A stretch of 64,000 nucleotides of DNA from Nocardioides kongjuensis (GTDB lineage: Bacteria; Actinomycetota; Actinomycetes; Propionibacteriales; Nocardioidaceae), in the NCBI RefSeq assembly GCF_013409625.1, contig NZ_JACCBF010000001.1:4901001-4965000 (forward strand), given 5' to 3'. A program made the translations under genes and the position numbers. How positions within the stretch are numbered: the stretch's first letter is position 1; each line of letters begins with the position of its first letter. This document shows, in pieces, positions 28,197 through 38,051 of this stretch. The notes beneath the pieces were generated by a model. It had not been told where the DNA came from, searched no databases, and worked only from the letters and a program-made list of their open reading frames with translations.

Positions 28197-29447
28197 CTAC
28201 TCGGCCACCGGCGCCAGCCGTCGGCACACCTGCGCCGCGATCGTCTCGACCGCGGGCTCGCGGGCGATCCCGGCGGCGACGGCCCGCGCCCGGACCCGGT
28301 ACGACGGCTCGTCGAGCACCCGCCGCAGCGCCCCGGCCAGCTCGGCGGGTCGCCGGACCCGCACCGCCACTCCGGCGTCCACGAGCCGGGCCGCGTGGTC
28401 GAACTGGTCGTAGTCGACCGGCCACACGACCGACGGCAGCCCCGCGGCGAGGGTGTGGCCCAGCACGCCGGCGCCGCCGTGGTGGACCACCGCGTCGAAG
28501 CGCGGCAGGTCGCGGGCGTAGTCGACGTACTCGTGCACCACCACGCCCGGCGGCACCTGCGGGACCGCGCCCGTGCCGCCCAGGCTGACGTGCACCTCGA
28601 CGTCGGGCAGCTCGCGAGCCGCTGACGCGGCCCGGGCGACCAGGGTGGCCTTGTGCCACGGCAGGTGCGTCCCGGCGGTCACCAGCACGGCGCGCCGTCG
28701 AGCGTCGAGGACCAGTGGGGGCGCGGCGGACGGCGGCGTGTGCAGCACCGGTCCGACGTACCGGACCGCGGCGGGCAGCGCCCGCGGGTACTCGACCGCC
28801 TCCGGCGTCAGCGCGAACACCCGCTCGGCCGAGTAGATCGACTCCGAGCCGTCCGGGCGGTACTGGCGGGTGATGCCGACGTCGGCGAGCCGCACGCCGG
28901 CCAGTCGCGGGGCGAGCCGCTTGAACCCGCGCACCCACGACCTCCCGACGGCGTCGCGTCCGCGGCCCAGGGCCGAGCGGCCGGGACGCCATCCGCCGAG
29001 GTACGACGGTGGCCCGGCCCGCCCCTCGATCGCGCACGGCGAGGGATGGGTGGTCCACCAGGGCACGCCGATCTCGTCGGCCGCCGTGCCCACCGCGCCC
29101 ATCGTGAAGTCCGCGATCACCAGGTCCGGGCGCTGCGCGGCCCACGCGACCAGCAGCTCGCGCCGGAAGTCGGCCTGCAGCGCGACCGCCGCACGGAACT
29201 GGCGCAGGAGCAGGCGCGGGTTGCTGCCGATCCGGTACGGCGGGTTCACGACCGTCTCGATCACCTCGTCGGCGCCGTCCAGCAGGGCCAGGCCGGTGAC
29301 GCCGGACGCGGCGATCGCCGGCAGCGCGGCGGCGGTGCTGATCACCCGGACGTCCAGCCCGGGCTCGGCGGCCAGTCGGGCGGCGATGCCGAGCACCGGG
29401 TGCAGGTGTCCCGCCATCGGGGGCGCGACCAGGTCGACCCGCCTCAT
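28197..29447 (-). CDS. UDP-glycosyltransferase-type enzyme (GT1, MGT-like)
   Basis: A 416-residue glycosyltransferase of the GT-B fold that moves a sugar from a nucleotide donor to a small or lipid acceptor. The N-terminal half opens with VAPPMAGHLHPVLGIA; the donor-binding signature is VHHGGAGVLGHTLAAGLPSVVWP at about residues 321-343 and the DQ pair that contacts the sugar is at 347-348. Relatives glycosylate macrolides, sterols and carotenoids. Last gene of the KAS III operon; its ATG overlaps the preceding stop (ATGA at 29444-29447). Confidence 0.88.
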   Translation of the reverse strand: MRRVDLVAPPMAGHLHPVLGIAARLAAEPGLDVRVISTAAALPAIAASGVTGLALLDGADEVIETVVNPPYRIGSNPRLLLRQFRAAVALQADFRRELLVAWAAQRPDLVIADFTMGAVGTAADEIGVPWWTTHPSPCAIEGRAGPPSYLGGWRPGRSALGRGRDAVGRSWVRGFKRLAPRLAGVRLADVGITRQYRPDGSESIYSAERVFALTPEAVEYPRALPAAVRYVGPVLHTPPSAAPPLVLDARRRAVLVTAGTHLPWHKATLVARAASAARELPDVEVHVSLGGTGAVPQVPPGVVVHEYVDYARDLPRFDAVVHHGGAGVLGHTLAAGLPSVVWPVDYDQFDHAARLVDAGVAVRVRRPAELAGALRRVLDEPSYRVRARAVAAGIAREPAVETIAAQVCRRLAPVAE

Positions 29448-30004
29448 GCGGCCTCCCCGGTCAGCTCGGCGACGAGCCCGGCGCACAGCGCGGCCAGCTC
29501 CGGCGCGGCGAGGTAGTCGAGGTGCCCGGCGGAGACCTCGACGTCGTGCGGCCACCAGCGCGCGAGGTGGTCCGACCGGCTGCCGACACGGATGGTCCGG
29601 CAGGCCGGCGGCCGGGTGGCGACGGCGCCGTACGCGACGACGGTGAGCCGGTCCAGCACCTCGGCGGGCAGCCCGAGGCGCCCCAGCAGGTCCAGGCCGA
29701 TCGACCCGGCCAGCACGAGGGTCCGGTCGGCGGCCCGCAGCTGGGCCTCGACCAGCGGCCGGTTCCGTCGCGTCCAGCGGGCACGCAGCAGCCGGATCCG
29801 CCAGAACAGCACGAGGTGCCGCAGGCTCGCGAGCCACAACGGCACGGCGTGGTACGGCGCCAGCGCGGCGTCGTAGGGGAAGTTCAGCCGGACCTTCGCG
29901 GTCTCCGGGACCGGCAGGCGGTCGAGGAAGGCGTCCTGGACCGGCGAGAGCGCGCACGAGCGGGGGTCGCTCTGGCCGGTCAGGTGCAGGACCTGCAGCC
30001 TCAT
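29444..30004 (-). CDS. Small protein, possible alpha/beta hydrolase relative
   Basis: A 186-residue protein with no secure family. A possible nucleophile elbow, LAGSIGLDLL, sits near residues 99-108 after a strand-like VLA, with an Asp in VGSRSDHLA and a His in SAGHLDYLAAP later, the order Ser-Asp-His of alpha/beta hydrolases, though shortened and with Ala in place of the first Gly. This resemblance is my inference. It lies between the two glycosyltransferases and shares start/stop overlaps, so it belongs to the same pathway. If it is a hydrolase it could release, decarboxylate or lactonise the product. Confidence 0.55.
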   Translation of the reverse strand: MRLQVLHLTGQSDPRSCALSPVQDAFLDRLPVPETAKVRLNFPYDAALAPYHAVPLWLASLRHLVLFWRIRLLRARWTRRNRPLVEAQLRAADRTLVLAGSIGLDLLGRLGLPAEVLDRLTVVAYGAVATRPPACRTIRVGSRSDHLARWWPHDVEVSAGHLDYLAAPELAALCAGLVAELTGEAA

Positions 30005-30011
30005 GACGGCC

Positions 30012-31175
30012 TCACCGGACGGGTGAGAAGTCGTCGTCGGAACGCACCCGGTAGGTGCGTGTGCGCCAGCGGATGGTGCGCTGCACTGCGCCGTGGCCGA
30101 GGTGCGCCGGTTGCAGCAGCTCGGAGACGAGCGACGGCAGTGGTGCGTGCAGGGATCGCCCGTAGACGCGGCGGTGCACGACCTGCAGCAGCACCCAGCG
30201 GCCGCCGAGCAGCGCCACCAGCGGGCCGGGCCGGCGCGTGCGGACCGAGCCGGCCAGCACCGCCCAGAGCAGGTTCGGGTGGATGCCGTGCAGCACGCTG
30301 ATCGCAGCGACCGTGCCGGGCGGCTGGCGGCGCAGCAGCAGGTTGGCGAAGAGCATCCAGCGGTGCATCAGCCGCACGTAGTGGCCGGGGGACTCGACAG
30401 TCGTGGTGATCCACTGCGGCGACGCCGTCTGGCAGATCGTCCCGCCGCGGCGCTGCACCGCGCCGGCGACGGCGAGGTCGTCGGTGAGGTTGCGCAGGAT
30501 CGGCGTGAACCCGCCGATCGCCCGCAGGTCGGCCACCCGCATCGCCCAGCACATCCCGTTGATCGTCACCGGCGCCATCGGCAGGTAGGTCAGGGCCGCG
30601 TTGTTGTCGACGAACTGCTCGACGAGCCGGGCCCACGGCGTCCGCCCGGGCAGGTACGCCGGCAGCCCGGTCGCCAGTGTCGCCCGCTCGAGACCGCCGA
30701 GGAGGGCGCCGAGGCTGGCGCGGGGGAGCCGGGTGTCGTCGTCGAGGACGAGGAGCACCTCGTCGTCGGCGCAGTCGTCCAGCGCCGGCTGGAGCTTGGC
30801 GAGCTTGGGGTTCACGCCGTCCGGCGCGGGCGGGCAGAGCCGCACCTCCAGCCGGGGCGCCGGGCCGATCCGCTCCACGACCCGCTGCGCCTCCGCGTCG
30901 TCCTCGTCGACCAGCCACACGAACCTCGCGCCGCCCAGGGACAGCAGGTTGTCGCGCAACGCGTCCTCGAGCCCGGGGTCGCCGGACAGGATCGGCTGCA
31001 CCACGACCACCCGGGCGATCGCCTCGGTGGAGGGCTCGACCGCTGCCGGTGCCCGGGACGCGGCCCGCAGCGCGGTGACGGTCTTGCCGGCCTGCAAGGC
31101 GAGGTAGCCGAGGGTGGCCATCGTGGTCAGGCGGCCGGTGGGGCGTACTTCTCGACCGTCTCTCGCGCGGCTCAC
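30012..31175 (-). CDS. Family 2/21-type glycosyltransferase (ceramide glucosyltransferase-like)
   Basis: A 387-residue inverting glycosyltransferase with one N-terminal hydrophobic segment. The metal-binding acidic cluster LDDDTRL is at about residues 144-150, then ALTYLPMAPVTINGMCWAMR, GGFTPILRNLTDDLAVAG, and a RW pair in HRWMLF, the layout of GT21 and hopanoid-associated transferases that add a sugar to a lipid. GTG 31175 overlaps the previous stop (GTGA); an ATG further in (GYLALQAG region) would shorten it by about 18 residues. Membrane-linked. Confidence 0.82.
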   Translation of the reverse strand: MSRARDGREVRPTGRLTTMATLGYLALQAGKTVTALRAASRAPAAVEPSTEAIARVVVVQPILSGDPGLEDALRDNLLSLGGARFVWLVDEDDAEAQRVVERIGPAPRLEVRLCPPAPDGVNPKLAKLQPALDDCADDEVLLVLDDDTRLPRASLGALLGGLERATLATGLPAYLPGRTPWARLVEQFVDNNAALTYLPMAPVTINGMCWAMRVADLRAIGGFTPILRNLTDDLAVAGAVQRRGGTICQTASPQWITTTVESPGHYVRLMHRWMLFANLLLRRQPPGTVAAISVLHGIHPNLLWAVLAGSVRTRRPGPLVALLGGRWVLLQVVHRRVYGRSLHAPLPSLVSELLQPAHLGHGAVQRTIRWRTRTYRVRSDDDFSPVR

Positions 31176-32146
31176 AGGTGCTCCCTCTGCCATGCCACGA
31201 ACTCCTCGACCCCCTGCGCCACCGACACCGCCGGTGCCCCGAGGTCGCGCAGCATCTTGTCGGGCACGAAGGTCTTGGACCAGCTCAGCACTCCCACGCC
31301 GTAGGGGGTGATCGGCGGCTCGCCCGGCAGGCGCAGCACCCGCCACGCCCGCTCCAGCACGCTCGCCGCCCGCATCGCGGTGGTCAGGCTGACCTCGCGG
31401 GTGGGCGGGTCGAAGCCGAGCTGCGTGATCACGTCGAGCAGCATCGCCTGGATCTCGACCGGCTCGGCGTTGGTGAGGTTGTAGACGCCGCCGAGGTCGG
31501 GCCGGGAGGCCAGCTGGAGCAGGTAGTCGGCGAGGTTGTCGACGTAGATCAGGTCGCCCACCGCGGGCGTCTCGCGGCCGGTCAGCCGAGGCACCCGTTC
31601 GGCCTTCGCCGCCGCGATGATCCGCGGGAAGAGCACCGTGTCGCCGGGACCGAAGACCGCGCGAGGCCGGGCGATCACCCAGGAACCCCCGTAGGTGCGG
31701 ACGATCCGCTCCGAACCGGCCTTGGTGCGGGCGTAGTCGTTGGCGAAGTCCGGGCCGACCGGCGAGTCCTCGGTGAGGTCGAGCTGGTCGCCGTCGCGGT
31801 AGAGCACGGAGGACGACGAGACGTGCACCAGTCGCGGCCTGCCCAGCCGCGTGCACCAGTCGACGACGGTCCGGGTGGCCAGCTCGTTGTCGCGCACGTA
31901 CTCCCTGCGGGGTGCGTACGGGGTCGCCCGGGCCGCGCAGTGGATCACCGCGTCGGGCTGCCACGGCAGGTCCGGCAGCTGTGCCGGGGAGACCCGTCCG
32001 AGGTCGACGCTGAGGTAGCCCGGCCGGTCCAGCCGGCGCCGGCCGATCCCGACCACCTCGTGCCCGGCCGCGGTGGCCCGCTCCCACAGCCGTCCGCCCA
32101 CGAACCCGGACGCACCGGTCACCAGCAGCCTCACGGGGTGGGTCAT
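31172..32146 (-). CDS. NAD(P)-dependent epimerase/dehydratase-type reductase (SDR)
   Basis: A 324-residue extended SDR. The dinucleotide motif GASGFVG is at residues 11-17, the catalytic Ser around 110-113, and the YxxxK pair is Tyr138/Lys142. Its C-terminal layout (substrate loop, then a helix with AASVLERAWRVL) resembles 3-beta-HSD and OleD-type enzymes, which reduce 2-alkyl-3-ketoacids in olefin biosynthesis, but the resemblance is by eye. Start overlaps the adenylating enzyme stop (ATGA at 32143-32146). Confidence 0.85.
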   Translation of the reverse strand: MTHPVRLLVTGASGFVGGRLWERATAAGHEVVGIGRRRLDRPGYLSVDLGRVSPAQLPDLPWQPDAVIHCAARATPYAPRREYVRDNELATRTVVDWCTRLGRPRLVHVSSSSVLYRDGDQLDLTEDSPVGPDFANDYARTKAGSERIVRTYGGSWVIARPRAVFGPGDTVLFPRIIAAAKAERVPRLTGRETPAVGDLIYVDNLADYLLQLASRPDLGGVYNLTNAEPVEIQAMLLDVITQLGFDPPTREVSLTTAMRAASVLERAWRVLRLPGEPPITPYGVGVLSWSKTFVPDKMLRDLGAPAVSVAQGVEEFVAWQREHL

Positions 32147-33396
32147 GACACCTTCCTGATCCGTCGTCGCTTCGCGTCCGGCGCCTCCACCGGCCACGCC
32201 ATCGGTACGACGGCCGGTGCCGTCGCGCCCAGCCGCCGCGCCAGCAGCCCGATCTCCGTGGCGACCCGCTCCATCGCACCGGACGAACCGGCGGTGGTCG
32301 CCAGCCGCCACTCGGCGCCGTGCTGCTCGATCCGGTAGTCGCCCAGGTCCCCGGCGAGCGCGACCGCGTGGCGCAGCACGTCGGGGTAGACCGGCACGTC
32401 GCCGAGGGCGAGGACGTCGTCGGCCCGGCCCAGCACGGCGTGGATCGATCGGCCGGGCCGGCCGCACGGGCATGGGCCGGGCGCGGCGAGCAGGACGTCG
32501 TCGAGGCGGTGGCGCACGACGTACTGCGTGGTCCGGGTGAAGTCGGTGACGACCGGGTGGAAGCGCTGGTGGTCGATCCACTCGGGCTCGACGTGCACGT
32601 GGGCCTCGTTGAGGTGCAGCCGGCCGGCGGGACAGCTGACCGCGAGCAGGCCCTCGGTGGCCTGGTAGATCTGCTCGACCGGTCGCCCGAACGCCTCGCG
32701 GATGACGGCCTCGTCGTCGGGTTCGAGGGTCTCCGCGACCGAGACGACCTGCAGCGGGCGCAGCCCGGCCGGCTTCGCGGAGGCGATCTGGCGCAGCACG
32801 CTCGCAGGAGCGACGAGGACGTCGGTCCCCGGTAGGTCGGGAAGGTGGGCCGCTACGGGCAGGGTCAGGTCGTGCCACGAGAACGACACCCGCCTGCTGC
32901 CGAGGGTCTCGTAGAGGTTGCTGTTGGCGCGCAGGAACAGCGCGATCCGCAGCGGCCGCGTCAGCAGCGTCCGCAGGCAGGCCGTGGACATGAGCTGCCC
33001 CATCAGGATCCCTGCCCACAGGCGGCTCTCCGCCTCCGAGACGAGGAAGACGCCGCGGGTCCCGGAGGTGCCCGACGACAGGCCGACGGTCACCCCGCCG
33101 GGCAGCCGGTCGGTGAAGGTGCGGGACCGTTCGGCGGCCTCGGCGACGGCCAGCGCCCGGTCGAGCGTGATGCCGTGGCGGTTGAACGCGGCGAAGTCGG
33201 CGAGCACCGTCCGCTTGTCGACGACCGGCAGTCCGGACAGCGGCCGACCTGCGAAAGGCGCGTAGAACCGGGCCTTCGGCAGCTCCTCGCGCAGGAAGCG
33301 GTCGAGCGCGCGTGCCCGTGCGGCGTCGTACCGACGGGGGAGGAGCCAGCGCTCGCGGGCGAAGGCGGCGGCCACCGCCGCCTGGGAGCCGGCCAT
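32143..33396 (-). CDS. F390-synthetase-related adenylate-forming enzyme
   Basis: A 417-residue member of the PaaK/F390-synthetase clade of adenylating enzymes. The ATP loop SSGTSGTRG is at residues 107-115, the YQATEG-type motif near 240, a CPCGRPG cysteine pair and GRADDVLALG follow. It should activate a carboxylic acid as an acyl-adenylate and perhaps a thioester. No carrier-protein gene is seen in the operon, so the product would be passed to CoA or used directly. ATG overlaps the MBL stop. Confidence 0.82.
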   Translation of the reverse strand: MAGSQAAVAAAFARERWLLPRRYDAARARALDRFLREELPKARFYAPFAGRPLSGLPVVDKRTVLADFAAFNRHGITLDRALAVAEAAERSRTFTDRLPGGVTVGLSSGTSGTRGVFLVSEAESRLWAGILMGQLMSTACLRTLLTRPLRIALFLRANSNLYETLGSRRVSFSWHDLTLPVAAHLPDLPGTDVLVAPASVLRQIASAKPAGLRPLQVVSVAETLEPDDEAVIREAFGRPVEQIYQATEGLLAVSCPAGRLHLNEAHVHVEPEWIDHQRFHPVVTDFTRTTQYVVRHRLDDVLLAAPGPCPCGRPGRSIHAVLGRADDVLALGDVPVYPDVLRHAVALAGDLGDYRIEQHGAEWRLATTAGSSGAMERVATEIGLLARRLGATAPAVVPMAWPVEAPDAKRRRIRKVS

Positions 33397-34235
33397 CAGT
33401 GCCCGGCGTACCAGGCCGCGTGGCCCTCGGGGCAGTGCGCGGGGAGGATCAGCAGGTCGTCGTGCGCGGCGTCGAGGACGTGCAGCACGCCGAGCGTGCG
33501 GACCGTCGAGTCCCAGTCGTGCATGACGCCCTTCGCCAGCCGGGACGGCGGCTTGAGGTCGCGGAACGAGCGCGAGGTCCACGCCGCGTCGCCGACCAGC
33601 AGCACCTGCCGGCCGCCGGAGGTGAACAACAGGCCGAGGTGGCCGGGCATGTGGCCGGGCAGGTCGACGGCAAGCAGGCTGCGGTCGCCGAGCAGGTCCC
33701 AGGTGCGCAGGCCGCCGACCTCGACCTCCGAGAAGGCGTCTACCGGGTCGAGCCGGTCGCGCAGGTCGGCGGGCAGCAGCGCCGGCAGGATCGCGTGGCG
33801 CACGGCGTTGATCCCGCGCAGGGACAGGGCGTGCTCGGCGCCGGCCGCACCGGCGATGATCCGTGCCTGCGGGTGGTCGAGCAGGCCACCGACGTGGTCG
33901 CCGTGGAAGTGGGAGACCACGATCCGGCGTACGTCGCCCGGGTCGACGTCGAGCGCCTCGAGCTGCCGCGGCAGGTGCTCCTCCGGGCGCAGGGTCACCG
34001 GGAGGGTGTTGCGGTAGAGCAGCTCGGGCAGCCGGCTGGTCGCGTCCATGAAGTGCTGGGAGTAACCGGTGTCGAACAGCGTCCAGCCCTGGGTCGGGTG
34101 GTGCAGCGCGCCGACGTACGACGGGAACTCGACGATCCGCAGTCGTCCGCCCTGGCGGGCCATCGCCTCGGGGCCCTTGCAGTGGCCCACGCGCAGCCAG
34201 TGGAAGGTGACCTCGGGCTGGTCGGTCAGTAGCAC
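33396..34235 (-). CDS. MBL-fold metallo-hydrolase
   Basis: A 279-residue metallo-beta-lactamase-fold protein with a complete HxHxDH site (HFHGDH, residues 109-114), a third-ligand histidine in PGHMPGHLG, the bridging aspartate in VLLVGDAAW and a late histidine in ILPAHCPEG. Closest in look to lactonase/thioesterase-type members (AHL-lactonase style). GTG 34235 overlaps the KAS III stop by 10 bases; no better start is in frame. Likely hydrolyses an acyl ester, thioester or lactone in the pathway. Confidence 0.85.
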   Translation of the reverse strand: MLLTDQPEVTFHWLRVGHCKGPEAMARQGGRLRIVEFPSYVGALHHPTQGWTLFDTGYSQHFMDATSRLPELLYRNTLPVTLRPEEHLPRQLEALDVDPGDVRRIVVSHFHGDHVGGLLDHPQARIIAGAAGAEHALSLRGINAVRHAILPALLPADLRDRLDPVDAFSEVEVGGLRTWDLLGDRSLLAVDLPGHMPGHLGLLFTSGGRQVLLVGDAAWTSRSFRDLKPPSRLAKGVMHDWDSTVRTLGVLHVLDAAHDDLLILPAHCPEGHAAWYAGH

Positions 34236-35224
34236 AGCACCACCCCGCCCATGCTGAGCCCGGCGCCGGTGCCGAGCAGGAGCGCCCGGTCGCCGCGCTG
34301 CAGGCGGCCGGACTCGATCGCGGCGTGCAGCGCCGACGGCAGCGATGCCCCGACCTGGTTGCCGTGGTCGGCGTAGATGTCCACCAGCCGGCCCTCCTCG
34401 ATCCCGAAGTGGTGCTGGACCCAGGCCAGCGCGTGGTGGCTCGCCTGGTGCGGTACGACGACCGGCAGGTCGGCCATGGTGGTGCCCGCCGAGGCGAGCA
34501 GCCGGTCGACGAACGGCGGCAGGTGCTTGACCGCGAGCCGGAACACGGCGCCGCCCTCCATCCGGAACCGGCCCCAGTCGGCGTACTCGCCGTCGACCCG
34601 GTCCGGAGCGAACCGCGAGCCGCCACCGCGGATCTCGCAGGTGTGCGCGCCCTCGCTGTGGGTGGCGAAGTCGGCGGCAAGGACGGCCGACCCGGTCTCG
34701 CCGGCGTGCCCGACCACAGCCGCGGCGGCACCGTCGCCGAAGATCCCGGACGCGCCGAGGTCCGACCAGTCGAGGCCGACCGAGGCCAGGTCGCTGGACA
34801 CGATGAGGATCCGCTCGTGCCGTCCGGCGTCGACGAGCGTGGCCGCCAGGTCGAGGGCGACCAGGAAGCTCAGGCAGCTGGCGTTGACGTCCCACGCCGC
34901 GATCGGCCGCGCCGGAGCGAGCTCCTCGTGCAGCAGGGCCGCGTTGCAGGGCAGCGGCTGGTCGGGCGTCGCGCTGGCGCCGATGATCACGTCGACGTCG
35001 TCGAGGGTGATGCCGGCCGCCGCCAGGGCCTTGCGCGCGGCGCGGGCGCCGAGCTCCGCGGCCGAGCCGCGCTCGACGTACCGGACCCGCACACCGGTCC
35101 GTGCCTCGACGGTGCCGGGCGGGAGCCCGAGGCGCTCGTCCATCGCGGCGCTGGTGACGGCCTCGTCGGGCCGCACCGCACCCGTGCCGAGGATCCGCAG
35201 GGCGCGGGGGCCGAGAGCAGGCAT
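34226..35224 (-). CDS. 3-oxoacyl-ACP synthase III-type condensing enzyme
   Basis: A 332-residue KAS III / FabH-fold enzyme. The catalytic triad is complete: Cys117 (DVNASCLSF), His259 (VVPHQASH) and Asn289 (DHGNQVGAS). FabH starts fatty acids; relatives such as OleA make beta-keto acids head to head. The neighbours argue for secondary metabolism rather than FabH. First gene of the operon that continues to 28197; ATG at 35224 has a TATCCT -10 element 7 nt upstream. The upstream part of the open frame is HNH-element sequence and is not coding. Confidence 0.88.
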   Translation of the reverse strand: MPALGPRALRILGTGAVRPDEAVTSAAMDERLGLPPGTVEARTGVRVRYVERGSAAELGARAARKALAAAGITLDDVDVIIGASATPDQPLPCNAALLHEELAPARPIAAWDVNASCLSFLVALDLAATLVDAGRHERILIVSSDLASVGLDWSDLGASGIFGDGAAAAVVGHAGETGSAVLAADFATHSEGAHTCEIRGGGSRFAPDRVDGEYADWGRFRMEGGAVFRLAVKHLPPFVDRLLASAGTTMADLPVVVPHQASHHALAWVQHHFGIEEGRLVDIYADHGNQVGASLPSALHAAIESGRLQRGDRALLLGTGAGLSMGGVVLCY

Positions 35225-35237
35225 GGCGACGAGGATA
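35225..35237 (-). promoter_or_regulatory. Leaderless -10 element of the KAS III operon
   Basis: On the minus strand TATCCT (35232-35237) lies 7 nt before ATG 35224; the only promoter-like signal for the operon I can see. Confidence 0.45.
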
Positions 35238-35293
35238 GTCAGCCGGGCAGGCCGGGGACGTCGGCGAGCCCGCGCCCGCCCAGCTGCCGCGAC

Positions 35294-35396
35294 TGTGCTC
35301 TGACCTTCGGTTGGGTGGCCGGTCGGGTCCCGAGAGGCAGCGACGAGGGAGGTGGGGAAGTGGTCGGGTTCCGCGGTCGGGCTGCGGCCCGCGAGC
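35294..35396 (+). repeat. HNH-flank module, copy A
   Basis: About 100 bp, roughly 80 percent identical by eye to 35487-35590 (period 193 bp) and also to the upstream flank of HNH copy 1 (about 13060-13146, reverse). Shared blocks include TTCGGTTG, GGCAGCGACGA and GGTCGGGTTC. Confidence 0.65.
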
Positions 35397-35486
35397 ACGG
35401 TGGTCGTGGGCGTCGCCCTCTGTGGTGGTCGAGGTGTGGGTTCGCGTAGCGACCGATCTTCAAAACTCGGAGTGTGCTGTTCGTAC

Positions 35487-35590
35487 TGTGCTCGGGCCTT
35501 CGGTTGCGTAGCCGGTTTCGTTCCGAATGGCAGCGACGAAGAAGGTGGCGAGGTGGTCGGGTTCAGCGGTCGGGCTGCGGTCCGCGCGAT
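35487..35590 (+). repeat. HNH-flank module, copy B
   Basis: Second copy of the module, directly adjoining the conserved HNH upstream flank. Copy A appears to be a relic or partial duplication. Confidence 0.65.
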
Positions 35591-35705: not shown

Positions 35706-37001
35706 ATGGATCTCGGAACCCGCCCCCGTTCGACAGCAGCTCTGCTGTCGCGGGTGGGCGACCGGATCCGGTCCCGCAACGCGTTGGTGATCGAGGAGTG
35801 GGAGGACATCACGGCCTGGGCGAGCGACCACGTCGTCACCGGACCCGAAGGTGCCGCGACGATCACCGAGGGCTACCTCGACACCGGCGTCCCGATCGCC
35901 GGCGCGGGGGCGCCGTTGGTGTCGGAGTTCGCGTTGATGGAGCTCGTCGCGGTCCTCGGCCGCACCCCCGACGGCGGCAAGGCCTACGTCGGACGAGTCA
36001 TCGAGTGCGCCTGGCGGCTCCCCAACGTCTACGACGCCGTCATCGCCGGGAAACTCGCTCCGTGGCGGGCCGAACGGATCGCCGACCTCACCCGAGGACT
36101 GTCGGCTGAGGCGGCGGGGTTCGTGGACCGCCAGCTGTGGAACGCCTCCGGCATCGGGTGGGCACAGCTCGAACGCCTCGTCACCGAAGCCGTGCTGCGG
36201 TTCGACCCCGACAAGGCCGAAGCCGACCGGGCCAAGGCTGCCGACCACCGTCACTTCGACATCAGCGACGTCGACGAGCACGGGCTCGTGCACCTCGACG
36301 GGCTGCTGGATGCCGCCGACGGCCACGACCTCGACCAAGCCGTCGCCCGTCGCGCCGAGGTGCTCGGCCGGTTGGGTGACGAGAGCTCGTTGGACGCGCT
36401 GCGGTCCAAGGCCGCTGCCGAGCTCGCCCGCCACGACCTGGCCCTGGACCTGCTGGTCCCGAACCCGGACACCGGAGAGGTCGTCGCGACCGTCCCCGGC
36501 CGCAAGGTCGTCCTCAACGTGCACGTCACCGACACCACCCTCACCGGTGAGAACCCGTTCGTGAACCCGGTCGGGCGGTGGGACGAGGGCCGCTGCCCGA
36601 TCACCACCGCGCAGATCCGGGAGTGGCTGCGTGCCCGGCACACCACGATCATCGTGCGGCCGGTCATCGACCTCGCCGACCACCTCCCCGTCACGGCCTA
36701 CGAGATCCCCGACCGCCACAAGACCAGGGTCGCGTTGCGGGACCACACCTGCCGCTTCCCCCACTGCACGCGTCCCGCGACCCGGTGCGACATCGACCAC
36801 CACCAGCCCCACGACCGGGGTGGTCCGACCTGCCCCTGCAACCTGGTGCCCCTGCGCCGGCGGCACCACCGCGCCAAGACCCACTCAGCCTGGCGCTACG
36901 ACACCCCGGCGCCGGCGACCTATGTGTGGACCAGTCCCAACGGCTATCGGTTCCGGGTCGACCACCGCGGCACCCACCCCGTCCACCCGCCCGACGAGTA
37001 G
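35706..37001 (+). CDS. DUF222 / HNH endonuclease domain protein, copy 2
   Basis: A 431-residue paralogue of the protein at 11657-12940, nearly identical from about residue 47 onward with a four-residue insertion (FVNP) near residue 285. The N-terminal 45 residues differ more. The HNH module is altered: the cysteine that should be near residue 384 (LVPLC in copy 1) is Arg (LVPLRRRHH), so one metal ligand is lost although the DIDH core and the HH pair remain. It may be inactive as a nuclease or bind metal differently. Confidence 0.85.
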   Translation: MDLGTRPRSTAALLSRVGDRIRSRNALVIEEWEDITAWASDHVVTGPEGAATITEGYLDTGVPIAGAGAPLVSEFALMELVAVLGRTPDGGKAYVGRVIECAWRLPNVYDAVIAGKLAPWRAERIADLTRGLSAEAAGFVDRQLWNASGIGWAQLERLVTEAVLRFDPDKAEADRAKAADHRHFDISDVDEHGLVHLDGLLDAADGHDLDQAVARRAEVLGRLGDESSLDALRSKAAAELARHDLALDLLVPNPDTGEVVATVPGRKVVLNVHVTDTTLTGENPFVNPVGRWDEGRCPITTAQIREWLRARHTTIIVRPVIDLADHLPVTAYEIPDRHKTRVALRDHTCRFPHCTRPATRCDIDHHQPHDRGGPTCPCNLVPLRRRHHRAKTHSAWRYDTPAPATYVWTSPNGYRFRVDHRGTHPVHPPDE

Positions 37002-37054: not shown

Positions 37055-37975
37055 TCAGCGGCCGGCGTCGTCCAAGGCGACCTTCGTCAGCCTCCGGCCG
37101 AGGTCGACCATCTCGTCGGCCCGGTGGAAGTCGATGGTCCGCGCGGCGCTGAGCGGCACGGTGACGAGCACGTCGGGCGGCAGGGTCGCGAGCCGGTAGC
37201 GGGTGATCAGGCTCTGCATGGCGTCGAAGGACAAGGAGACGACCTCCGCGGTCCGCACGTCGGGGCGTACGTCGACCGCCTCGGCCGGAGGTGCCTCCGC
37301 GGGTGCCTCGGGGGCGGCCGTCTCGCCGAGGTCCTCCTCGTTGCGCCGGAACCGCCGCCGTAGGTCGGCCGCCCACTCCGCGCGGCGCACCGAGAAGCCC
37401 CGGGCGGGAGACGTCGGCTCGTGCGGCTCGCGCGGGCCCTGCAGCGACACGGCGACGGTGAACTCCGCGGTCGCCGCCGCGGTCGGCTCGAGGGGGAGCG
37501 GGTTGAGCAGGCCGCCGTCGACCAGCACGCGGCCGTCGACGACGGCGGGCGTGAACAGGCCGGGGATCGCGAAGGACGCGCGCATCGCCGGGATCAGCGG
37601 GCCGCGCTGGAACCACACCTCGCGGCGGGCGGCGAGGTCGGTCGCGACCGCGGTGTAGGGGATGGGCAGCGACTCGATGAGCACGTCGCCGACGATCTCG
37701 TCGAGCGCCGCCATCAGCTTCTCCGCCGTGGCCGCGCCGCCGCCGCCCCAGCTGGGATCGGCCAGTCGTACGACGCGGCGCCCGGTCAGCGACGAGGCCC
37801 AGGTGGCGAACTCGGCGTCCTTGCCGGCAGCGACCAGGCCGCCGACGACGGCACCCATGGACGTACCGGAGACCGCCACGATCTCGTGGCCGCGGTCGCG
37901 CAGCTCCTGGACCGCACCGAGGTGGGCGTACCCGCGGGCGCCGCCGGAACCGAGGACGAGAGCGACGCGTGCCAT
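37055..37975 (-). CDS. Patatin-like phospholipase family protein
   Basis: A 306-residue patatin-fold serine hydrolase. The oxyanion loop GSGGARGYAHLG is at about residues 8-19, the nucleophile is the Ser in VSGTSMGAVVGG near residue 38, and the second dyad member is the Asp in LVDGGLLNPLP near residue 157. The length and layout resemble RssA-type bacterial patatins. ATG 37975 gives the motif at the usual distance from the N-terminus; upstream ATG 38047 would add 24 residues that overlap the TetR operator. Substrate unknown; acts on acyl esters. Confidence 0.88.
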   Translation of the reverse strand: MARVALVLGSGGARGYAHLGAVQELRDRGHEIVAVSGTSMGAVVGGLVAAGKDAEFATWASSLTGRRVVRLADPSWGGGGAATAEKLMAALDEIVGDVLIESLPIPYTAVATDLAARREVWFQRGPLIPAMRASFAIPGLFTPAVVDGRVLVDGGLLNPLPLEPTAAATAEFTVAVSLQGPREPHEPTSPARGFSVRRAEWAADLRRRFRRNEEDLGETAAPEAPAEAPPAEAVDVRPDVRTAEVVSLSFDAMQSLITRYRLATLPPDVLVTVPLSAARTIDFHRADEMVDLGRRLTKVALDDAGR

Positions 37976-38031
37976 GCCTCCATTGTCCGCAGCGGCCGCG
38001 CCCACGGTGGAACGGGTCACGGAAATCATTT

Positions 38032-38051
38032 GTGAGTGAGTGCTCACTCAC
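38032..38051. promoter_or_regulatory. TetR operator
   Basis: A perfect 9-bp dyad (GTGAGTGAG, 38032-38040; CTCACTCAC, 38043-38051) with TG between. It lies between a possible -35 (TTTGTG, 38029-38034) and the -10 (TAGGCT, 38053-38058) of the TetR/ABC operon, so repressor binding would block it. Confidence 0.8.

Follow-up and report, generated by a model that had tools for sequence, protein, structure and literature searches.

Several described systems resemble in part a seven-gene operon of Nocardioides kongjuensis that is the subject of this work. According to the available parts of the published reports, OleA turns two acyl thioesters into a β-keto acid (PMC4578411, PMC7064751), and both OleA and PpyS use a catalytic glutamate supplied by the partner subunit (OleA E117, PpyS E105), a position at which MxnB and CorB, the stand-alone ketosynthases of myxopyronin and corallopyronin, carry V94 (PMC4578411). 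In the accessible text of PMC5724707, structure 4V2P is MxnB and 3S23 is OleA, the MxnB triad is C121/H264/N292, and MxnB acts on carrier-protein-bound chains of a polyketide synthase (PKS). The nearest printed precedent that we found is the A. atraurantiacus cluster of OleA, a glycosyltransferase (GT), OleC, a P450 and OleD, for which a glycosylated β-lactone is proposed in the available part of PMC7064751. HpnI, the bacteriohopanetetrol glycosyltransferase, belongs to the GT21 type and has a lipid alcohol as its substrate. The pqsABCDE genes of alkylquinolone synthesis combine a KAS III-type enzyme, a metallo-β-lactamase (MBL)-fold protein and an adenylating ligase.

The operon occupies positions 28197–35224 on the minus strand of the window, by which we mean the whole 64,000-nucleotide stretch analysed (GCF_013409625.1, contig NZ_JACCBF010000001.1, positions 4,901,001 to 4,965,000), and codes in order for a KAS III-type ketosynthase (KAS), an MBL-fold hydrolase, an adenylate-forming enzyme (ADE), a short-chain dehydrogenase/reductase (SDR), a GT21 glycosyltransferase, a small α/β hydrolase (predicted) and a GT1 glycosyltransferase. 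It shares with OleABCD and oleACD the logic of the steps, with an acyl-condensing enzyme, an SDR nearest to OleD and an adenylating enzyme, and some of its actinobacterial relatives have an OleA-like KAS; it differs in that its own KAS is of another subfamily and lacks the glutamate, its ADE is a TIGR02304 protein and not OleC, an MBL hydrolase, two GTs and a small α/β hydrolase are added, and no OleB was identified in it. With MxnB and CorB the operon KAS shares the best sequence match, a C-H-N triad and the lack of a glutamate at the OleA E117 position, and with MxnB also the best NCBIfam model, PRK07204, but the operon has no PKS and has an MBL hydrolase, an SDR, an ADE and GTs. The A. atraurantiacus cluster likewise joins a condensing enzyme, an SDR, an adenylating enzyme and a GT, with a proposed glycosylated lipid-like product, but it has a true OleA and OleC and one GT, no MBL protein is named in the available part of PMC7064751, and its product is also unproven. 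The operon is set apart from pqsABCDE by its GTs, SDR and α/β hydrolase and by the distance of the pqs KAS (scores given below), and from HpnI by a GT21 that falls below the HpnI cut-off and by the absence, among the seven genes, of any other hopanoid family over its cut-off. As judged from sequence, the operon is Ole-type acyl-fusion chemistry in a new form with interchangeable tailoring, and its product is likely a glycolipid. That the operon is one biosynthetic unit making a glycosylated, fatty-acyl-derived lipid from two fused chains, by reactions, in an order and with a product that we infer, is a tentative proposal to which we give somewhat less than an even chance.

Identity of the ketosynthase

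The KAS gene (34226–35224, minus strand) codes for an enzyme in which the triad C117-H259-N289 was intact, these residues being found in 73, 74 and 74 of 74 alignment rows, respectively, with one gap. Its closest solved relatives were MxnB (206 bits) and CorB (199), followed by the best FabH (166), 3h76, an enzyme of Pseudomonas quinolone signal (PQS) biosynthesis that we take to be PqsD (94), OleA (approximately 80) and PqsC (at most 61). PRK07204 was the best NCBIfam model both for this KAS (350 bits) and for MxnB (323 bits), each below the cut-off of 402, whereas the FabH of the same genome (G000:C1:615086-616030) reached 148 bits; since MxnB and CorB also scored higher, plain FabH was discarded as closest relative. 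With the OleA model PRK09258 the KAS reached 110 bits (cut-off 285), and a 184-aa piece of OleA scored 260 bits on this, its best model. The column of the OleA glutamate holds L91 in the window KAS. Because the OleA/PpyS catalytic glutamate is absent and MxnB and CorB are nearest, the KAS is, on these sequence grounds, of the MxnB/CorB two-chain type and not OleA.

In 86 loci (L017-L096, L099-L103 and L172) we looked for a KAS up to 9 kb from the ADE, and 79 of them had one. Seven of the 79 had a glutamate-type KAS with the motif SQD(L/M)IEPATSH, one of them (L082) as a partial sequence, and in all seven an MBL gene was absent within 6 kb. The other 72 had L, M or I (71) or a gap (one) in the glutamate column, and an MBL gene lay within 6 kb in 71 of them. 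Three of the seven glutamate-type enzymes were compared with the models, and PRK09258 was the best for each (149–167 bits); the EP(S/A)T motif of OleA also aligned with the motif of the L172 KAS. In L172, the OleA-like KAS stands beside ADE, SDR, GT21, hydrolase and GT1 genes and a P450-like gene (read by eye). Since the MBL-less clusters carry an OleA-like KAS with the glutamate, an MxnB-type KAS and the MBL hydrolase may together do what OleA does alone.

The remaining enzymes

The MBL-fold hydrolase (33396–34235, minus strand, with a GTG start) resembled N-acyl-homoserine lactone (AHL) lactonases, and its HxHxDH motif at residues 109–114 was present in 77 of 77 alignment rows. The ADE (32143–33396, minus strand) exceeded the cut-off of TIGR02304, the F390 synthetase-related family (293.3 versus 251.9), its nearest solved relatives were PaaK-type ligases, and its glycine/serine-rich motif and K409 were invariant in 24 sequences. 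No Pfam model matched it at E 0.1 and no OleC or AMP-binding model did so at the thresholds used; none of the profiles run identified it as OleC, and that identification was rejected, although an OleC-like function could still hold by analogy. The extended SDR (31172–32146, minus strand) had as its best NCBIfam family OleD, the 2-alkyl-3-oxoalkanoate reductase (146.5 bits, cut-off 580). A YxxxK motif, which we take to be catalytic, was read by eye in it.

The GT21 enzyme (30012–31175, minus strand) scored 103 on PF13506 (cut-off 21.7) and 68.5 on HpnI (cut-off 310), so that it is only remotely HpnI-like, and the last gene (28197–29447, minus strand) codes for an MGT/EryCIII-like GT1 enzyme. 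Between them, the 186-aa protein (29444–30004, minus strand) had no Pfam or NCBIfam match, and Foldseek with its predicted model returned no match at E ≤ 0.001; a second structural aligner matched the model to lipases, and S101, D145 and H161 were invariant. On this modelled, lipase-like fold it is predicted to be a minimal α/β hydrolase.

The original prediction had listed intact catalytic residues in the KAS, MBL hydrolase, ADE and SDR, an F390-related activating enzyme and GT21- and GT1-like glycosyltransferases, all of which agreed with the alignments and profiles above, the SDR motif by eye and the ADE by HMM (hidden Markov model) search. It gave no name to the 186-aa gene, whose product is here predicted to be an α/β hydrolase. 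Its OleA-like condensing step did not hold, given L91 at the glutamate column and MxnB and CorB as the nearest relatives. The likeness to OleABCD that it noted stood for the SDR, nearest to OleD, and for the similar logic of the steps, but not for the KAS and ADE, which by profile are not OleA and OleC; membership of OleABCD was rejected on the KAS glutamate and on the KAS, SDR and ADE models.

Conservation of the seven-gene cluster

We surveyed 196 genomes of the genus at the curated TIGR02304 cut-off, which 18 exceeded, the window's genome included. All 17 other carriers kept the seven genes in identical order (17/17), which argues that the arrangement is not due to chance; in this comparison of neighbourhoods, the genes were not scattered in relatives. 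Among 396 evenly sampled genomes of the phylum, that of the window alone exceeded the cut-off. Weaker TIGR02304 matches stand outside these counts (at E ≤ 0.001, a further 14 genomes in the genus, and another 134 in the phylum draw), and one of them, in the distant genome L165, was an ADE only, with 33% identity. With an alignment of the 186-aa protein as query, 394 genomes of the class gave three matches: the window's own genome, one same-genus carrier and L172, where the homologue sits between GT21 and GT1, beside the ADE and SDR genes.

A scan of named-species genomes yielded 557 confirmed ADE loci, of which the best 80 were analysed; counts from this set therefore lean towards the window's type. 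Several of the 80 are metagenome-assembled genomes (MAGs), and some of its genomes may also be among those of the genus survey, which means that the counts should not be summed. The exact order KAS-MBL-ADE-SDR-GT21-hydrolase-GT1 was found in 12 of these best 80 loci, from five phyla by record title (L017-L022, L024, L030, L048, L058, L063 and L065). They comprise Pimelobacter/Nocardioides, Acidobacteriota, a Gemmatimonadetes MAG, Pandoraea together with Undibacterium, and Verrucomicrobiota; four are MAGs (L022, L024, L030 and L065), and named strains include Pandoraea horticolens, Luteolibacter marinus and Undibacterium squillarum. Across the window and 15 loci picked for carrying the GT pair, the pairwise distances of the seven proteins were correlated for all pairs (r 0.81–0.97); for non-Nocardioides pairs r was 0.52–0.96, with the minimum for the short hydrolase. 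The patchy presence and kept gene order fit transfer of the cluster as a unit.

Within the genus, the MBL proteins of L155, L161, L106, L151, L153, L156 and L157 were 51–61% identical to that of the window. In L155 and L161 the remaining operon genes were 75–87% identical, which hints at replacement of the MBL gene or at two MBL lineages. An apparent second GT1 in L152 was rejected as one gene matched in two pieces.

A shared core with different tailoring genes

KAS, MBL, ADE and SDR genes occurred together in 61 of the 80 loci by HMM scan and in 67 once KAS genes found by tblastn were added, the scan having overlooked the KAS in L033, L038, L039, L054, L059 and L061, all six of which tblastn recovered. 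In the wider family three tailoring sets predominate, one or another of them accompanying a KAS-SDR-MBL-ADE core. The GT21 and GT1 pair was present in 18 loci, 15 of them with a hydrolase of the 186-aa type that occurred in none of the other 62. An ATP-grasp gene was present in 37 loci, 34 of which also had a GNAT gene and 26 a Rieske oxygenase gene as well; fatty acid hydroxylase and desaturase genes occurred in 12, each time with PAP2. The ATP-grasp gene never co-occurred with either of the other sets in the 80 loci. In Klebsiella BIGb0407 (L080) a single run of genes includes both hydroxylase/desaturase and SDR-GT21-GT1. In most clusters without the glycosyl set, an SDR of another branch than that of the window (SDR1) lies between KAS and MBL, and Buttiauxella (L081) has the order KAS-SDR1-MBL-ADE-SDR-GT21-hydrolase-GT1. 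A query with the E. coli SDR1 found no close SDR1 elsewhere in the window's genome, the best match being the operon SDR (103 bits) and the next scoring 38.

In E. coli, the PAP2/hydroxylase/desaturase form was matched in 672 of 5426 genomes, 671 of them across at least 80% of the query, and in record NZ_CP141085 it lies between narI and purU. Among annotated plasmid records, those of Paraburkholderia (L100) and Paenibacillus (L101) carried ATP-grasp with GNAT, that of Pontibacillus (L103) had ATP-grasp as its only tailoring gene of this set, and that of Ketogulonicigenium (L102) had no more than the core; the core was also found in several Pseudomonas and Ralstonia species. Possible further tailoring types were seen in L072 and L172 (and, by cluster label, L064 and L082), where an actinobacterial ADE accompanies an OleA-like KAS and a P450-like gene (read by eye), with an additional alcohol-dehydrogenase-like gene, also read by eye, in L072.

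Proposed pathway and alternatives

In the pathway that we propose, the MxnB/CorB-type KAS would fuse two acyl thioesters head to head and the MBL hydrolase would free the resulting β-keto acid, which OleA releases unaided. The OleD-related SDR would then reduce the 3-keto group, and the TIGR02304 enzyme would adenylate the carboxylate on the way to a lactone, ester or thioester. Finally, GT21 and GT1 would attach two sugars, and the small α/β hydrolase would trim or transfer an acyl group. This sequence of two-chain fusion, release, reduction, adenylation and glycosylation is favoured because of the KAS subfamily and the exchange between KAS type and MBL. Of the original prediction, a conserved lipid-type operon with two GTs was borne out; its new glycolipid pathway is a conjecture.

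Several observations weigh against this pathway. MxnB-type enzymes given β-keto substrates form α-pyrones, and malonyl-ACP (acyl carrier protein) and a single chain could be the substrates of a FabH-like enzyme. The operon KAS without glutamate group only weakly with MxnB in the tree (support 0.507), and the SDR is far below the OleD cut-off. In seven of the 86 loci (L062, L073, L076, L083, L084, L086 and L091), which were dropped, no KAS lay within 9 kb, and Paenibacillus L093, the exception among the 72, has neither the glutamate nor an MBL gene. The seven glutamate-type KAS come exclusively from actinobacteria, and those six whose sequences sufficed for the tree group as a single clade (support 1.0), so the exchange of KAS and MBL may be a single event. 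The second SDR of Buttiauxella L081 and Klebsiella L080 is unexplained by a model with a single SDR. Because 62 of the 80 ADE loci and six glutamate-type clusters (all but L172) are without the GT pair, glycosylation lies outside the core.

An order resembling PQS synthesis would begin with an aryl- or acyl-CoA starter made by the PaaK-type enzyme; after a single extension with malonyl by the KAS, the MBL protein would act as a PqsE-like thioesterase and the SDR would reduce the ketone before glycosylation. It agrees with the PaaK-type ligases nearest to the ADE, with a C-H-N triad of the kind used in decarboxylative condensation and with 3h76 among the KAS relatives (94 bits), but the KAS is far closer to the two-chain enzymes MxnB and CorB, the exchange of KAS type and MBL with an OleA-like enzyme is left unexplained, and the fatty acid hydroxylase, desaturase and PAP2 of sister clusters suggest an aliphatic membrane lipid; we consider this order unlikely. 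Somewhat less likely again is a glycosylated β-lactone of the oleACD, lipstatin-like type, with the TIGR02304 enzyme closing the ring as OleC does. The absence of any OleC or AMP-binding match for the ADE at the thresholds used and of the OleA glutamate from the window KAS speaks against it, even though the proposal for the A. atraurantiacus cluster (PMC7064751, as far as available) and L172, with its OleA-like KAS, P450-like gene (by eye), ADE, SDR and GTs, offer parallels.

Were the KAS alone to form a dialkyl α-pyrone as MxnB does, with the MBL protein and SDR modifying it and the GTs glycosylating it, the closest characterized KAS being pyrone synthases (MxnB and CorB) and the lactonase-like MBL protein would both be accounted for. 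The operon, however, has no PKS or ACP genes to supply the two chains, the MBL-less clusters carry an OleA-like KAS, and MxnB made its pyrone in vitro with no MBL, SDR or adenylating partner, as described in the available part of PMC5724707; such a pyrone is, in our judgement, slightly less probable than the β-lactone. That the genes belong to a locus for surface polysaccharide or O antigen, as two glycosyltransferases and an SDR of the epimerase family might suggest, is very improbable, since the seven include no polymerase, flippase or nucleotide-sugar gene, the SDR is nearest to OleD and not to a sugar epimerase, and the GT pair is missing from 62 of the 80 ADE loci.

Extending the two-chain fusion pathway to the whole family is a doubtful but possible step. 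The core KAS-(SDR)-MBL-ADE would then define a widespread, undescribed class of lipid pathway across several phyla, fusing two acyl chains with an MxnB-type KAS and a separate MBL hydrolase in place of OleA and with interchangeable tailoring sets, the window's version giving a diglycosylated, branched hydroxy-acid lipid.

Searches of the open-licence literature for F390 synthetase-related proteins, F390-type enzymes in general, the E. coli form, Nocardioides glycolipid clusters and MBL-containing Claisen clusters found no description of the cluster among the papers listed, and the mentions of F390 in the available parts of PMC9823363, PMC5467263 and PMC2649909 had no bearing on it. The cluster therefore matched no known pathway in that literature, in keeping with the statement of the original prediction that it could be linked to no named system. 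The literature covered assigns no product to a cluster of which every gene is kept in distant phyla and whose core occurs in about one-eighth of the E. coli genomes searched. If the proposal is true, it would define fused-chain lipids as a family with exchangeable head groups, acyl fusion and thioester release, which OleA combines, would be separable onto two proteins, and the function of the TIGR02304 enzyme, so far named only 'F390 synthetase-related', would become directly testable.

Operon layout and flanking DNA

Start and stop codons were checked for each of the seven open reading frames, and all lie on the minus strand at the places first given for them in this 5.67 Mb genome. From KAS to GT1 the junctions measure −10, −1, −4, −4, +7 (a gap) and −4 bases; the overlaps and the 7-bp gap described earlier were present, except that MBL and ADE overlap by one base (TGATG) and not by four or ten. 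The single −10 element proposed upstream corresponds to TATCCT (35232–35237, minus strand), 13 nt before the KAS ATG, a leaderless spacing. Counted by eye, 12 of 17 same-genus relatives have the word no more than 45 nt 5′ of the KAS start, although their flanking DNA differs, at a leaderless spacing in some and ahead of a longer leader in others; a stricter script test for TANNNT at leaderless spacing was positive in 7 of the 16 relatives in which the start codon was found. A σ70 consensus scan detected no promoter. TATCCT is thus a conserved −10-like word with a putative promoter role.

Directly upstream and divergent from the operon is a DUF222-family gene (35706–37001, plus strand), which we take to be of the 13E12-repeat type. 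Between it and the operon start lies a 102-nt direct repeat (35292–35393 and 35485–35586, 84% identical, spacing 193), and beyond the DUF222 gene a patatin-like phospholipase gene (37055–38047, minus strand).

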